From Pseudorhodoplanes sinuspersici (GTDB lineage Bacteria; Pseudomonadota; Alphaproteobacteria; Rhizobiales; Xanthobacteraceae), in assembly GCF_002119765.1 (NCBI RefSeq), contig NZ_CP021112.1:2226501-2290500 (forward strand): a DNA stretch of 64,000 bases, written 5' to 3'. The notes beneath the pieces were generated by a model. That model searched no databases, was not told the DNA's origin, and was given only the letters and a program-made list of their open reading frames with translations. Positions 3,643 to 63,840 of this stretch are shown here, piece after piece; position 1 is the stretch's first letter; every line of letters begins with the position of its first letter. The translations under genes were made by a program, and so were the position numbers.

Positions 3643-4471
3643 TGTATTTCCCCTATCGTAATTTGGTGCGGGGGCGATTCCCCCAAGCTGCAACCGCCCG
3701 ACTGCGTGAATTAACCGGCAATCGGCGATGCACCTGTGCAATATCGGAAAGGCCCCTAAAACAGGGGTGCCGGGTAAGCGAATTCACGTTGACGCCGAGA
3801 TTACAATTCGTGTTCATGACGTGGCATTTCGCCCGAACCAAGGCCGGATTTTGACCAAGCATCCCTGACCTCAACGTTGCTGTGCAAAATCCGAGGCGCA
3901 GCGTCAGGCGTTCGCGAGCCGCAAAAGCCGCGCGCTTGCCGGAGATTCGTCAAATATTTCGCACGTCGTTGTATCTCGTTCGGCGCGAAAGCACATGCCG
4001 AAGCGAAAATTGAGCGCTGAACTCAAACCAAAGCATGCTGTCCGCCGATGCCGAACGTATCGCAGTATCCCAGCCTCTTTGCTGCCGACATCAGAAGCCT
4101 GTCGATTGTGGCAAGCGTCCGGGAAAATACGTTGGCTCCAACCGATCTAGCCGGCCGTATCTCGTCGCGACTTGACGGGCGTCAATATCGCAATACCGGG
4201 CCGAAATAGGGTGACTCAAAGCCAAACGCCCTACGTCCTGGTCCAAGGAAAGCGATGCGCTGGCTGGTCGTGAGACGACTGACGGTGCGTTCGCTGGGCC
4301 AAGGCGATGAGCGGATAGGCGCGCGCTGGCAGCACCCATGCACGAAATTTCAAGCCAACTCGTCCCGCACCGTCTCAGCAAGTGCGCTGCCGCGCGACGT
4401 TCAATGCGTGTGGAGTCAAGGCAGTCTCTGTTGCGGCGCAGTGGCGAACGAGTTCAGAAAATCGATTCGCA
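3643..4471. other. Intergenic region, no gene recognised
   Basis: About 830 bases between the type I secretion pair and the glycosyltransferase operon, which are transcribed away from each other. Short open frames on both strands (for example 4091-4381 minus) have no recognisable protein features. The region must hold two divergent promoters, but I cannot place them. Confidence 0.5.
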
Positions 4472-58021: not shown

Positions 58022-58570
58022 CTAGCTATCGTTGCCGATCAGCACCGCGCGCGTGGCGTGGTCGGGGCCGAACTCGTCGAGACTGTCGACCTGCAACAGC
58101 TTGGCGAGCCGGCTGCGCGCCCGGTTCACGCGACTCTTGATGGTGCCGACCGCGCATTCGCAGATGTCTGCGGCCTCCTCGTAGGAGAAGCCCGAAGCGC
58201 CCACCAGGATGAGGGCTTCGCGCTGCTCTGCCGGCAATTGCGCGAGCGCGGCCCGGAACTCCTGAAACTCCACCCGGCCGATCTGGTCCGGATGCGATTT
58301 CAGCGTCTCGGCGAAGCCGCCATCGGCGTCTTCCACCTCGCGCCGGCGCTTGCGATATTCGGACCGGAAGAGATTGCGCAGGATGGTGAACAGCCATGCC
58401 GGCATGTTGGTGCCCGGCTGGAAGGAGTGAATGTTGGCAAAAGCGCGCAGGATCGTCTCCTGCACCAGGTCGTCGGCCCTGTCGACGTTGCCAGATAGCG
58501 ATATGGCAAACGCCCGCAAGCTCGGAATTGCAGCCAGGATCTGATCGCGCAGAGCTGGATCGACATTCAT
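58022..58570 (-). CDS. ecfG: EcfG-type ECF sigma factor of the general stress response
   Basis: 182 residues. Region 2 includes LRAFAISLSGNVDRADDLVQETILRAFANIHSFQPGTNMPAWLFTILRNLFRSEYRKRRREVEDADG, the ECF15/EcfG pattern; region 4 runs from LPAEQREALILVGASGFSYEEAADICECAVGTIKSRVNRARSRL. It directs RNA polymerase to GGAAC-N16/17-CGTT promoters. In unstressed cells NepR holds it; phosphorylated PhyR takes NepR away. Its ATG overlaps the nepR TGA. Confidence 0.96.
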   Translation of the reverse strand: MNVDPALRDQILAAIPSLRAFAISLSGNVDRADDLVQETILRAFANIHSFQPGTNMPAWLFTILRNLFRSEYRKRRREVEDADGGFAETLKSHPDQIGRVEFQEFRAALAQLPAEQREALILVGASGFSYEEAADICECAVGTIKSRVNRARSRLAKLLQVDSLDEFGPDHATRAVLIGNDS

Positions 58571-58776
58571 TCGGATTTTCCCTCCGATGGCTTGTCGAGT
58601 TGTTTCAAAAGCTCCGCAAAACGATCGGGGACGCCCTCCTGAACCACGTCATCGTAGATGGCGCGGAGCTGCTGGCCGATCTTTGATTGGATTTCCCGGT
58701 TGAGACCGGAAGCGTTCTTCTGGTTCGGGGCGTCCGGCTGCATGGATGGAGATTGCCCTGGTTTGCGTGTTCTCAT
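58567..58776 (-). CDS. nepR: NepR anti-sigma factor
   Basis: 69 residues. The two-helix core LNREIQSKIGQQLRAIYDDVVQEGVPDRFAELLKQLD is typical NepR. It binds EcfG and, when PhyR is phosphorylated, PhyR. An upstream in-frame ATG at 58839 would overlap the promoter spacer, so ATG 58776 is preferred. The operon nepR-ecfG is translationally coupled (ATGA). Confidence 0.93.
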   Translation of the reverse strand: MRTRKPGQSPSMQPDAPNQKNASGLNREIQSKIGQQLRAIYDDVVQEGVPDRFAELLKQLDKPSEGKSE

Positions 58777-58829
58777 TTCGTCCTCGCCCGGCGTGCTCGT
58801 CACCACCGGTCCCCAGTACGTTTGGTCGT

Positions 58830-58854
58830 AATGCGTCATTATTTAAAAGGTTCC
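58830..58854 (-). promoter_or_regulatory. EcfG-type promoter of nepR-ecfG
   Basis: Minus strand GGAAC (58854-58850), 16 bp, CATT (58833-58830). One mismatch to CGTT. The -10 context GACGCATTACG recurs exactly in the sRNA promoter at 60827-60851. Supports autoregulation. Confidence 0.7.
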
Positions 58855-58861
58855 TCGACCG

Positions 58862-58886
58862 GGAACTTTTTTTGGTAAAACACGTT
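58862..58886 (+). promoter_or_regulatory. EcfG-type promoter of phyR
   Basis: GGAAC (58862-58866), 16 bp, CGTT (58883-58886), 37 bp before the phyR start. Exact consensus, divergent from the nepR promoter. Confidence 0.88.
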
Positions 58887-58923
58887 GGGACCGAGATTCC
58901 AGGTCCAGTGGGAGGGATTTTTC

Positions 58924-59724
58924 GTGTCCGCTTCGCAAGCTATCGCCCCGTATCTGCCGTTTCTGCGCCGCTATGCCCGTGCACTGACCGGCAACCAGAC
59001 CTCGGGTGACGCCTATGTGGCGGCGGCCCTGGAAGCGCTGATCGAAGACACCTCGGTGCTCGACAGCGCTTCTTCGCCGCGGGTCGCGCTCTATCGCCTG
59101 TTCAGCAAGATCTGGAATTCGGTCGTGGTGAATGCCAAGGTCGGTCCCGACGAGAGCACCCTGCCGGCCGAGCAGCGGATCAGCCAGATTACGCCCAAGC
59201 CGCGCCAGGCGTTCTTGCTGGTCGCATTGGAGGGGTTCTCGGAAGCCGACGCCGCCACGATCCTTGATGTCGATATTCCGACCCTGCGCCAACTTGTCGA
59301 GGAATCCGGCCGCGAACTGGCAGCGGAGATCGCGACCGATGTGCTGATCATCGAGGATGAGCCCTTCATCGCCATGGACCTCGAAGGGCTTGTCGAAAGC
59401 CTCGGTCATCGTGTGTTGGGGGTCGCCCGAACGCATACGGAAGCGGTGACCCTCGCCAAGGCGAAGCGTCCGGGTTTGATCCTGGCCGATATCCAGTTGG
59501 CGGATGGTAGTTCGGGGCTCGACGCGGTCAACGAATTGCTCCGCTCGTTTGAAGTCCCGGTCATCTTCATCACCGCCTATCCGGAACGCTTCCTGACCGG
59601 CGAACGTCCCGAGCCGGCCTTCCTGATCGCCAAGCCATTCCAGCCAGCCACGGTGTCGGCGGTGATCAGCCAGGCCCTGTTCTTCGAGCGCAACGCGCGC
59701 CGCCGCGAGCGCCGGGCGTCCTGA
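58924..59724 (+). CDS. phyR: PhyR response regulator, anti-anti-sigma factor
   Basis: 266 residues. N-terminal EcfG-like domain (about 5-130: FLRRYARALTGNQTSGDAYVAAALEAL, then FLLVALEGFSEADAATILDV), lacking DNA-binding function; C-terminal receiver (138-260) with acidic pair E144/D145 (IIEDEPFIA), phosphoacceptor D189 (LILADIQLADG), ITAYPE threonine and IAKPF lysine. Phosphorylated PhyR sequesters NepR. The start is GTG 58924 with GGGAGGG upstream, leaving 37 bases from the promoter -10. It diverges from nepR-ecfG. Confidence 0.96.
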   Translation: MSASQAIAPYLPFLRRYARALTGNQTSGDAYVAAALEALIEDTSVLDSASSPRVALYRLFSKIWNSVVVNAKVGPDESTLPAEQRISQITPKPRQAFLLVALEGFSEADAATILDVDIPTLRQLVEESGRELAAEIATDVLIIEDEPFIAMDLEGLVESLGHRVLGVARTHTEAVTLAKAKRPGLILADIQLADGSSGLDAVNELLRSFEVPVIFITAYPERFLTGERPEPAFLIAKPFQPATVSAVISQALFFERNARRRERRAS

Positions 59725-60186: not shown

Positions 60187-60642
60187 TTACTCCCGCGGGC
60201 GCGCGAGACCTGCGATGAAGCCGATCCCTGCTGCGATGGCCAGCGTCAGAAATGGACGGTGATCGATCTCGGAAACAATGCGCCTGAGAGCCTGATTTCC
60301 AAATTTGGTGACCTCATCGCTGGCGGACCTGGCGGTATCTTGCATCCGGCCGCTCACCTGATCCGTCAGGCCGGAAATGGCATTGAGCATGATATCGCTT
60401 GCGCCCTCAGCGGCATGGGCCGCGCCGCGTTTGCTGATGCGGTTCAGCCGATCGATTTTGGCTTCGAGGGAGGCGATCATATCATCGATCTCGGCGCGCA
60501 TGGCGGCGACGTCATCGGCAACAGCCTCTCTCATGATGCCGCGAGCACGCGAAGGCGACGTCTTGCGCCGGCGGCGTTGGGCTGAGCCGTTTCTGCGTCG
60601 TGTTTTGGCGGATGTTTCAGCTTGAGCTTGCCCTCGTGCCAT
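60187..60642 (-). CDS. ElaB/YqjD-like (DUF883) membrane-anchored protein
   Basis: 151 residues. A very basic N-terminus (KTRRRNGSAQRRRRKTSPSR), a coiled-coil (DVAAMRAEIDDMIASLEAKIDRLNRI), a segment rich in Ala/Ser, and a C-terminal membrane helix (FLTLAIAAGIGFIAGLA) ending ARPRE, like the C-tail of ElaB/YqjD ribosome-associated stress proteins. ATG 60642 follows GGAGG at 7 bases. An exact EcfG promoter lies 41 bp upstream. Confidence 0.8.
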   Translation of the reverse strand: MARGQAQAETSAKTRRRNGSAQRRRRKTSPSRARGIMREAVADDVAAMRAEIDDMIASLEAKIDRLNRISKRGAAHAAEGASDIMLNAISGLTDQVSGRMQDTARSASDEVTKFGNQALRRIVSEIDHRPFLTLAIAAGIGFIAGLARPRE

Positions 60643-60683: not shown

Positions 60684-60708
60684 AACGCCGGGGAACTCGC
60701 ATTGTTCC
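60684..60708 (-). promoter_or_regulatory. EcfG-type promoter for the ElaB-YqjE-like pair
   Basis: Minus strand GGAAC (60708-60704), 16 bp, CGTT (60687-60684), about 41 bp before ATG 60642. Exact consensus. Confidence 0.85.
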
Positions 60709-60735
60709 GAATGCGTTGGTGATGCTCGGCTCACG

Positions 60736-60820
60736 AAAAAAAGCGCGGTCGGCAGTACAATGCCGACCGCGCCTAATCCAACCGGCCGAGCACGAGGGGA
60801 GGGGGATGACGGCCGGCTGT
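60736..60820 (-). ncRNA. Putative EcfG-dependent small RNA with C-rich loop, GsrN-like
   Basis: About 85 nt, predicted from three signals in order on minus: an EcfG-type -35/-10 at 60851-60827; a hairpin with stem CCGGCCG (60816-60810) / CGGCCGG (60788-60782) and a 21-base loop containing CCCCCUCCCC (60805-60796); and a 12-bp perfect terminator stem (GCGCGGTCGGCA / its complement, 60772-60743) followed by seven U. No ORF fits between them. GsrN of Caulobacter is an EcfG (SigT)-dependent sRNA that acts through a C-rich loop. The 5' end is estimated from the usual -10 spacing. Confidence 0.7.
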
Positions 60821-60826
60821 AGGCGT

Positions 60827-60851
60827 AATGCGTCCGCAAAGGGATCGTTCC
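60827..60851 (-). promoter_or_regulatory. EcfG-type promoter of the putative sRNA
   Basis: Minus strand GGAAC (60851-60847), 16 bp, CATT (60830-60827). The eleven bases GACGCATTACG around the -10 are identical to the nepR promoter. Confidence 0.68.
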
Positions 60852-61051: not shown

Positions 61052-62704
61052 ATGAAAGCTGAAGCCTTGGTGAAAAACGTGCGGGGGACGAAACAGGGAA
61101 GTGGTGGAGAAAAAAAGCGCGGGCGGAAAGGCGGACATCCTTCCCGAGCGACAATGTTGCGCAAATCGACTCCGCGCAAATTGGTCTCGCGCGCGCCGGG
61201 CGTAAAAAAACATCCCATTGGAAAATCAAATTCAAAACGGCTGTCTGCGAGTGTTCGGACCGCCGACGATTTCGATCGGGAGCGGAAGCTCCATGCCGAG
61301 ACTCGTTACAAACTCAAACGCGCGCGGGCGGCGCTACATCGTCAAACTGGCGAATGCAACGAACTCAAGGAACGATTTGAAGCGGCATTTCGGGGTGCCC
61401 AGATCCATGCCTTCTCGCAGGATCAGCATCTTCGCTATCTGTGGATTTCAGGCCCGCATGGTGAAGAGGCGGCGGCCCGGATGGTTGGAAAGACCGATGA
61501 AGAGCTTTGGCCATCGCCCGAATTGCAGGCCGCGATCACCATCAAGCGGCGCGTCCTCGAAACCGGAAAATCCGAGGATTGCGAAGTCTCTTTCATCACG
61601 CCGGAGCGACGCGCTCTCTTTGCACTTCATATAGACCCGGTCTTTGCCGTCGATCGTTCGGTGAAGGGCATCCTCTGCACCGCGGTGGACATCAGTCGGA
61701 TTCGATCGATGGAGAGCGAGCAGCGGCAGCTCAATGAAGAACTGGCGACAGCAGTGCAGCGCTACGAACTCGGCCTGCGGGGCTCGAATGTCACCGTCTT
61801 CACGCAGGATACCGATCTTCGCTACACCGCAGTCAGCAAGCCGCTGTTTGGTCGTGATGCCGCCGAATTGCAGGGCAGGACGGACGAAGAGCTGTTGTCC
61901 GGCGCGCATGGGGCTGCGATTTTTGCTCTGAAACGCGAGGTGCTGGATAAGGGCGTTCCGCTCAACGCCGAATCCCGCATCGATGCCGGTGACAAATCGC
62001 TATGGTACGATTTTCATATTGAGCCGATGCGGGATGTCTCCGGTACGCTGATCGGATTGACGGGGGCGGCCGTCGATATCACCGAGCGCAAGGAGGCCGA
62101 GGCTCATCTGCGGCTGCTGATGCGCGAGCTGACGCATCGTTCGAAAAATCTTCTCGCCGTCATCCAGGCGATGGCACGGCAGACGGCGCGGCATAGCGGC
62201 AGCATTGCCACGTTTCTGGACAGGTTCAGCGCTCGCGTCCAGGCTTTGGCGCGTTCGCACGATCTGCTCGTGGCTGAAGGCTGGCATGGCGCTTCGCTGA
62301 ATGATCTCGTGCGCTCGCAGCTTGCGCATTACATCGACGGTGAATCCAATCAGGTTTTGATTGACGGTCCGGATGTTCAGCTGACGCCGGAAGCCACACA
62401 GAGCCTTGGGCTTGCCTTACACGAACTTGTGACCAATGCCGCCAAGCACGGCGCCCTGTCGAAGCTCACCGGGCGCGTTGAGGTGACGTGGCGGCCGCTC
62501 GCGGGCAATGGCGGCGTCGAATTGCTATGGCGTGAGACAAAAGGGCCGAAGGTCAGCGAACCAAAGCGGCGGGGCTTTGGCAGCGTGGTGATCGAGCACA
62601 ATCTCGTTCGGGCGCTCGATGCGGAGGTCAGTCTTGATTTTGCTCCAGACGGTCTGACCTGTCGCATTGCAGTGCCGTCAAAGCAGATTGCCGGCCGCTC
62701 CTGA
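61052..62704 (+). CDS. PAS-PAS-HWE/HisKA_2 sensor histidine kinase, candidate PhyK
   Basis: 550 residues, no membrane helix. The first 65 residues are strongly basic. Two PAS domains follow (about 108-215, FEAAFRGAQIHAFSQDQHLRYLWISG; about 230-350, YELGLRGSNVTVFTQDTDLRYTAVS), then H362 in LMRELTHRSKNLLAVIQAMARQTA (HWE/HisKA_2 phosphoacceptor) and the ATPase with LALHELVTNAAKHGALS. HWE/HisKA_2 kinases of this type phosphorylate PhyR in Alphaproteobacteria, and phyR is 1.3 kb away, so this is a candidate PhyK. A soluble sensor with two PAS domains suggests an internal cue. Confidence 0.88.
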   Translation: MKAEALVKNVRGTKQGSGGEKKRGRKGGHPSRATMLRKSTPRKLVSRAPGVKKHPIGKSNSKRLSASVRTADDFDRERKLHAETRYKLKRARAALHRQTGECNELKERFEAAFRGAQIHAFSQDQHLRYLWISGPHGEEAAARMVGKTDEELWPSPELQAAITIKRRVLETGKSEDCEVSFITPERRALFALHIDPVFAVDRSVKGILCTAVDISRIRSMESEQRQLNEELATAVQRYELGLRGSNVTVFTQDTDLRYTAVSKPLFGRDAAELQGRTDEELLSGAHGAAIFALKREVLDKGVPLNAESRIDAGDKSLWYDFHIEPMRDVSGTLIGLTGAAVDITERKEAEAHLRLLMRELTHRSKNLLAVIQAMARQTARHSGSIATFLDRFSARVQALARSHDLLVAEGWHGASLNDLVRSQLAHYIDGESNQVLIDGPDVQLTPEATQSLGLALHELVTNAAKHGALSKLTGRVEVTWRPLAGNGGVELLWRETKGPKVSEPKRRGFGSVVIEHNLVRALDAEVSLDFAPDGLTCRIAVPSKQIAGRS

Positions 62705-62709
62705 GAGCC

Positions 62710-62734
62710 GGAACACCTTCCCCTTTCAGACGTT
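62710..62734 (+). promoter_or_regulatory. EcfG-type promoter of the secreted hypothetical gene
   Basis: GGAAC (62710-62714), 16 bp, CGTT (62731-62734), 89 bp before ATG 62824. Exact consensus. Confidence 0.82.
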
Positions 62735-62823: not shown

Positions 62824-63309
62824 ATGTGGCGTAAGACAGTATGCGCCGGGAGTGGGATTATACTTGCTTGTGCGGCCATTTATGGACTGTCTTCTCTCGA
62901 TACCCGCTCAACCGCAGCAAATTTCGATCTGCGCTGGCTTTATCCGGCGTCAAAAGCCGATCGGCTGCCCCTCGTGCAGCTGCGATCAATCAACGTCGAT
63001 AACGTCGTGATGGCCTTCAATGTGCCGTCGGCCAGCACGACGATCGCGGCGAGAGGTCCAACGCTGATCGGGACAGAGTGGTATCGTTCCAAAAACGGTC
63101 AGAATGCACCGGTTGCGCGAAGCGTCCAAGCTTCGCCTGTGAGGGTTCGCACGATCCCGGTCAATCCGGTGCGGACTGTGCCGCTTAACGAGAAGCCGGA
63201 CACGAAGGACGCCAAGGATAAAGATAAATTGCCTGTCGGTTGCGAGCCGGCATTCAGCCCCGTCACGACGCCGTCAATGGCTCATATCAGCTCACGTTGT
63301 GATGCGTGA
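62824..63309 (+). CDS. Hypothetical exported protein, EcfG-controlled
   Basis: 161 residues. The N-terminal segment (KTVCAGSGIILACAAIYGLSSL) is a signal peptide or anchor. The rest is low-complexity, with many Pro, Val, Arg and Lys (RTIPVNPVRTVPLNEKPDTKDAKDKDKL) and three cysteines overall; the last two (GCEPAF, SSRCDA) could pair. I recognise no family. GAGGAATCGGTC precedes the ATG. Exact EcfG promoter and a following terminator make it a single-gene stress transcript. Confidence 0.75.
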   Translation: MWRKTVCAGSGIILACAAIYGLSSLDTRSTAANFDLRWLYPASKADRLPLVQLRSINVDNVVMAFNVPSASTTIAARGPTLIGTEWYRSKNGQNAPVARSVQASPVRVRTIPVNPVRTVPLNEKPDTKDAKDKDKLPVGCEPAFSPVTTPSMAHISSRCDA

Positions 63310-63710: not shown

Positions 63711-63840
63711 ATTTTCCGAAAATCCGTCATCATTCATGTTGCGGAACGGAACGGTGTGCGCGTACGTTCTGCAGACTTGCATTCACGCCCACGCCGATGC
63801 TCGTTTTTAATTCATCGGCAAGATATCCCGGAATGAATCC

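Follow-up and report, generated by a model that had tools for sequence, protein, structure and literature searches.

Does the general stress-response locus of Pseudorhodoplanes sinuspersici encode, next to its protein switch, a small RNA (sRNA) that answers to the same sigma factor? In this response, PhyR takes NepR away from EcfG, and the genes of the general stress regulon are marked by EcfG promoters (PMC3892343, PMC5869019). The stretch of DNA analyzed here (64,000 nt; "the window") carries the whole switch: ecfG (58022–58570, minus strand; Pfam sigma-70 regions 2 and 4) adjoins nepR (58567–58839, minus; Pfam NepR), the start of which is uncertain in that its longest frame takes in the promoter -10, and phyR (58924–59724, plus; Pfam PhyR_sigma2, PhyR_sigma-like, and Response_reg) begins with a GTG at 58924. 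An EcfG-type site, GGAAC-N16-CGTT (58862–58886, plus), precedes phyR. The EcfG-like sites of phyR and nepR are divergent and 8 bases apart (58830–58886), which suggests that EcfG drives both arms of the switch. The putative sRNA gene lies 1.0 kb past the end of phyR, with nepR and ecfG on the opposite side of phyR; it is flanked by an HWE histidine kinase gene (61052–62704, plus) and, downstream on its own strand, by a gene without a Pfam match (60187–60642, minus). The genome also contains an Hfq gene.

The predicted sRNA is about 80–86 nt long (60736–60821, minus), its 5′ end being placed by the spacing from an EcfG-type promoter, GGAAC-N16-CATT (60851–60827, minus). Its 5′ hairpin (60782–60816) has an outer stem in which CCGGCCG (60816–60810) pairs with CGGCCGG (60788–60782); the 21 bases between these arms include CCCCCTCCCC, and in the predicted fold an inner CAU/GUG stem narrows them to an exposed, C-rich 12-nt loop, CCCCCUCCCCUC (60794–60805), with predicted unpaired probabilities of 0.93–1.0. 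An intrinsic terminator (60772–60736) follows—a 12-bp stem (60772–60743) and then seven T on the minus strand (60742–60736). The predicted RNA, folded as an 88-nt segment and in an 86-nt form, reaches -49.3 kcal/mol; the 88-nt segment has a folding z-score of -8.1, and none of 200 shuffled sequences was equally stable. The original prediction, made from this DNA alone, had described the promoter, the hairpin around 21 mostly-C bases, and the 12-bp terminator with seven U, and all were located at these positions. The 11-base identity that it claimed with the -10 context of the nepR promoter also holds, the shared letters being GACGCATTACG. Taken alone, the promoter pattern carries little weight: the 64-kb window has 11 occurrences of GGAAC-N15..18-CRTT, with 4.1 expected. 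The element as a whole stands above chance because it is conserved in relatives.

How far does this conservation reach? A DNA search gave matches in 7 of 61 genomes, including the query genome, and all six relatives combined the C-rich hairpin with GGAAC-N16-NNTT and a terminator hairpin that has diverged. Several candidates were discarded along the way. One DNA match (L009) lay at a place absent from the model matches (its genome, G028, has only the other two), another (L008) was the element's own terminator palindrome, and five pattern matches (L043, L045, L064, L068, and L078, from Kerfeldbacteria, Streptomyces, an alphaproteobacterial metagenome-assembled genome [MAG], Geodermatophilaceae, and Acidimicrobiales) were chance hits without a model match. 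We then used covariance models of the transcript: R1, built on six sequences, and R2 and R3, retrained on earlier matches; the samples searched overlap. R1 matched 55 of 248 family genomes, R2 83 of 391, and R3 159 of 296, the last spread over 29 of 47 genera (122 of 231 among good-quality family genomes; 7 of 8 in the genus itself, the exception being G002). The covariance check proposed in the original prediction came out in its favor: stems, loop, terminator, and promoter are conserved. Beyond the family, R3 matched only the query among 337 genomes of the class, R2 matched 2 of 397 genomes of the order (the query and G400), and R3 matched 10 of 175 genomes of the order at E values up to 0.1, five of them from the query's own family. 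Absence outside the family is not proven, because these large genome-wide searches ran with strict filters and missed a relative from another family (L136/L278, family f16), which came up (27.1 bits) only in a search confined to its locus; this off-family locus shows the same convergent arrangement, together with the promoter and a hairpin containing CCAAGCCCCCC. No Rfam 15 family reached its gathering threshold in the window or in the loci of 10 relatives, and the near-matches were dismissed as chance (the best scored 21.4 bits, where the cut-off is 80).

The promoter provides independent evidence, because it was left out of every covariance model. After removal of four antisense matches (E 0.001–0.005) and one duplicate place (L048) from the 49 R1 matches, all 44 that were read carried GGAAC-N15/16-NNTT beginning 33, 34, or (in one case) 37 nt before the model start; GGAAC-N16-NNTT occurs in 0.58% of random 40-nt stretches. 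All 26 matches of a further, mostly weak set had GGAAC at 32–38 nt, with NNTT at the -10 position in 19 and NGTC in 7. In 28 more matches, one of which (L261) is the same place as a member of the 44-match set (L035), GGAAC was found 32–35 nt upstream in 27, the exception being L260; NNTT followed in 12, NGTC in 14, and neither in one. A weak point is a subgroup with a CGTC-like -10 in place of NNTT, which comprises 21 of the 53 rows with GGAAC in the later two sets. Four weak off-family matches (L274–L277) had no GGAAC within 60 nt upstream (0/4), and the match in G400 (L273) has GGAAC and sits on a 14.6-kb contig without phyR.

The proposed helices covary. In an alignment of 40 distinct rows (A4), 14 of 23 pairs had undergone changes in both partners (shuffled mean 7.4; slid controls at most 4), and in a 52-row alignment (A5) 22 of 23 had done so (shuffled mean 12.4; slid at most 11); both alignments were fitted to the model, which biases them toward the proposed structure. 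Double-change cells in A5 numbered 168, vs. 50.7 in shuffled and at most 24 in slid controls. By helix, pairs changed on both sides made up 8/8 of helix 1, the outermost pair of which is unpaired in 19 of 52 rows, and 11/12 of the terminator; the inner 3-bp helix (helix 2) is 82.6% paired. That outermost pair and helix 2 are the weaker parts of the structure.

As to genomic position, in three sets of loci the sRNA gene converges with the 3′ end of phyR at 76 of the 76 loci with phyR in reach—35/35, 22/22, and 19/19, with 9 of 44, 4 of 26, and 1 of 20 loci, respectively, lacking phyR in reach (14 loci in which none was found). The two genes are 80 nt to 1.6 kb apart in the first and second sets; in the third set, the gap spans 119 nt to 15.5 kb. 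One genome (G028) has two phyR-nepR-ecfG loci, each with its own sRNA (L130 and L131).

What, then, is this element? Comparison lends strong support to the original proposal, in which an sRNA with an EcfG-type promoter and an exposed C-rich loop lies beside phyR-nepR-ecfG. We read the element as an sRNA gene that stands on its own and serves the general stress response, of the GsrN/ReC64-like kind, with a probability of roughly 85%. Comparison among relatives establishes the predicted gene, its stems, C-rich loop, terminator, and promoter, and its place facing phyR; its transcription under stress and its targets are what we infer from these. In the proposed mechanism, PhyR would draw NepR off EcfG under stress, and EcfG would transcribe the ∼80- to 86-nt RNA from GGAAC-N16-CATT. 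A stable 5′ hairpin would display the 12-nt C-rich loop, and the RNA would end at the intrinsic terminator. The loop would most likely pair with G-rich stretches in translation initiation regions; given the gene, base pairing through the loop is a highly plausible mode of action.

Known systems provide close parallels. GsrN of Caulobacter crescentus (∼100 nt), which is driven by the EcfG-type sigma factor, likewise has a C-rich 5′ loop and an intrinsic terminator; compensating mutations demonstrated that it activates katG through pairing of seven loop bases with the katG leader, and GsrN homologs, like the sRNA here by phyR, usually lie near stress-response genes (PMC5869019). Four traits of a GsrN-like RNA are present here: an EcfG-type promoter directly upstream, an exposed 5′ C-rich loop, a terminator giving a total of ∼80–110 nt, and phyR, nepR, and ecfG nearby (typical, not obligatory). 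Homology to Caulobacter-type GsrN, however, was not detectable, R3 being without a match in the 336 other genomes of the class, a sample of unnamed membership searched with strict filters. ReC64 of Rhizobium etli is also a short RNA (88 nt) beside a phyR locus, downstream of phyR-tcrY, with an EcfG1-dependent promoter and a start mapped by 5′ RACE; the likeness is one of size, promoter, and place, and the available part of that report describes no target (PMC3892343). BjsR1–BjsR10 of Bradyrhizobium japonicum USDA 110, confirmed by Northern blot, are sRNAs of a related genus, but Table 1 of that study lists them with RpoD- or RpoN-type promoters or with none predicted, unlike the EcfG-type promoter here (PMC5082802). 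The accessible portions of the Bradyrhizobium sRNA literature, that study included, describe no EcfG-driven RNA beside phyR, and those of the open-licence literature on GsrN, EcfG, PhyR, ReC64, and sRNAs of the lineage contain no description of the present family. The prediction of GsrN homologs in Rhodopseudomonas palustris and Bradyrhizobium diazoefficiens had been based entirely on proximity and an EcfG site (PMC5869019), and the family very probably includes them. The novelty lies in a family now defined by evidence from structure and promoter; the concept itself is not new. A position-based prediction becomes a searchable RNA family of 29 genera, with a structure, a promoter register, and a concrete candidate target site, and its probable members in Bradyrhizobium and Rhodopseudomonas offer workable strains for study.

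Which mRNA might the loop contact? The best single candidate is phyR, the ribosome-binding site of which, GGGAGGG (58910–58916, plus), is complementary to the loop and stands, as originally predicted, ahead of the phyR start, 7 nt before the GTG at 58924. Masking of this site would put a brake on the EcfG-driven activator, a reading that we hold tentatively. Leaders of phyR, otherwise diverged, often keep GGGAGGG or GGGGAGGG at Shine–Dalgarno distance. GGGAGGG is found in the phyR initiation region of 17 of 23 genomes with a CCCUCCC loop and 0 of 31 with a CUGCCC loop, the phyR leaders of the latter having mostly GGAGUGGGG or GGAGGGGG (GGGG in 27/31). Of 27 phyR loci from beyond the family, one has GGGAGGG, ∼30 nt upstream of the aligned start. 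Among 301 local genes, as called by a gene caller that missed the window's own phyR, 9 have GGGAGGG near the start; phyR accounts for eight, and the remaining one overlaps the sRNA gene on the opposite strand.

Pairing energies point the same way. With one start per gene chosen by Shine–Dalgarno score (L100 and L104, without a start, left out), the duplex between loop and phyR start averaged -15.8 kcal/mol vs. -8.0 for 674 other starts; the phyR site paired better than 626 of these, and 48 were as good. By contiguous complementarity, 87 of the 674 were at least as long as that of phyR. An earlier, harsher test, which took the best of many starts for each background gene, ranked phyR alone at the top in 11 of 38 loci, with 92 of 412 background genes as good. 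Within the locus, the mean rank fraction of pairing was 0.08 for phyR, 0.26 for ecfG, 0.35 for nepR, and 0.54 for the kinase. An EcfG-like site lies 59–107 nt before the phyR start in 22 of the 23 CCCUCCC-loop genomes and in 6 of the 31 others (5.5% of 200-nt control stretches have one); in the former group, EcfG would thus drive both the activator and its brake.

An alternative, to which we give somewhat better than even odds, is that the same sRNA leaves phyR alone and acts downstream on other stress mRNAs as in Caulobacter, the G-rich site of phyR being simply a strong ribosome-binding site kept with weak GTG or TTG starts. It is in keeping with GsrN, for which the available text reports that no feedback on stress-response transcription was found (PMC5869019). 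It also fits the swap test: exchanging loops between the two groups did not weaken pairing, which indicates no loop-specific coevolution. Moreover, the predicted fold of the phyR leader leaves GGGAGGG only partly accessible (0.01–0.57 unpaired), cofolding of sRNA and leader gains only -0.7 kcal/mol (by a method blind to kissing loops), and the genome has about 100 similar sites—104 of the form GGGAGGG-N5..9-RTG, against 30 in a reversed control. Less easily accommodated are the rank fraction of phyR, the lowest of the four locus genes, and the rarity of GGGAGGG in other local genes and in off-family phyR loci. Feedback on phyR, offered as speculative in the original prediction, is upheld only in part: phyR is the best-pairing gene of the locus and its site recurs in most CCCUCCC-loop genomes, but the swap test, the partial folding, and the number of genomic sites speak against it. 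Unlike in Caulobacter, where GsrN is reported not to feed back, a phyR site is conserved here, and masking of that site by the loop is a possible, somewhat doubtful case of conserved negative feedback inherited with the locus. Were phyR the target, the activator of the alphaproteobacterial stress response would itself be subject to a posttranscriptional brake, a possible explanation of how the EcfG–PhyR positive loop is closed.

Searches for other targets gave little. The suggestion of katG gained no support: among four leaders read in the genus (two more loci could not be parsed), GGGGAG occurs only in the query genome. Of 49 genomic sites of GGGGAGGGG, the 30 examined formed no clear stress-gene set; the reversed control, being the same pattern, is uninformative. 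Likewise, 30 of the 104 GGGAGGG-N5..9-RTG sites, examined by eye, fell before genes for a TctC-type receptor, an IclR-type regulator, and others, with no pattern.

Could the element instead be the leader or attenuator of the minus-strand gene at 60642–60187, which does lie downstream on the same strand? We consider this very unlikely and reject it: that gene has its own GGAAC-N16-CGTT (60708–60684) between the terminator and its start, and in many relatives the element directly adjoins the 3′ end of phyR, with gaps from 80 nt. That the hairpin arose by chance, or is a repeat that happens to match the promoter pattern, as the mild enrichment of the promoter pattern in the window and the seven R3 matches in one genome (G011) might suggest, is exceedingly improbable and largely refuted by conservation, given the double changes in the stems, the fixed promoter register, a single match in nearly all listed genomes, and the presence of a promoter at five of the six copies read in G011 (L255–L260).

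Several minor observations accompany the proposed sRNA gene. In G011, one of the six copies read lies at the stress locus, and the others sit on contigs of 3 to 23 kb; these dispersed copies have CCCAAGCCCCCC-type loops. In a subgroup with large genomes (L098, L099, L106, and L235–L254), the terminator loop, which is variable elsewhere, is a near-constant GUGGUGAUGCC, possibly a second contact site. In another family of the order (f2), a locus without an R3 match (L147) has, by pattern only, an EcfG site, CCCCCCGCCC, and a terminator-like hairpin facing phyR on the minus strand near 3657—a possible analogue. Within the window, the minus-strand site at 60708–60684, ahead of the gene at 60642–60187, is part of an overlapping EcfG-like dyad (60684–60717), with GGAAC-N16-CGTT on the minus and GGAAC-N17-CGTT on the plus strand. 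More plus-strand EcfG-like sites occur at 62710–62734 and 63743–63768, the former ∼90 bp ahead of an open reading frame without a Pfam match (62824–63309).
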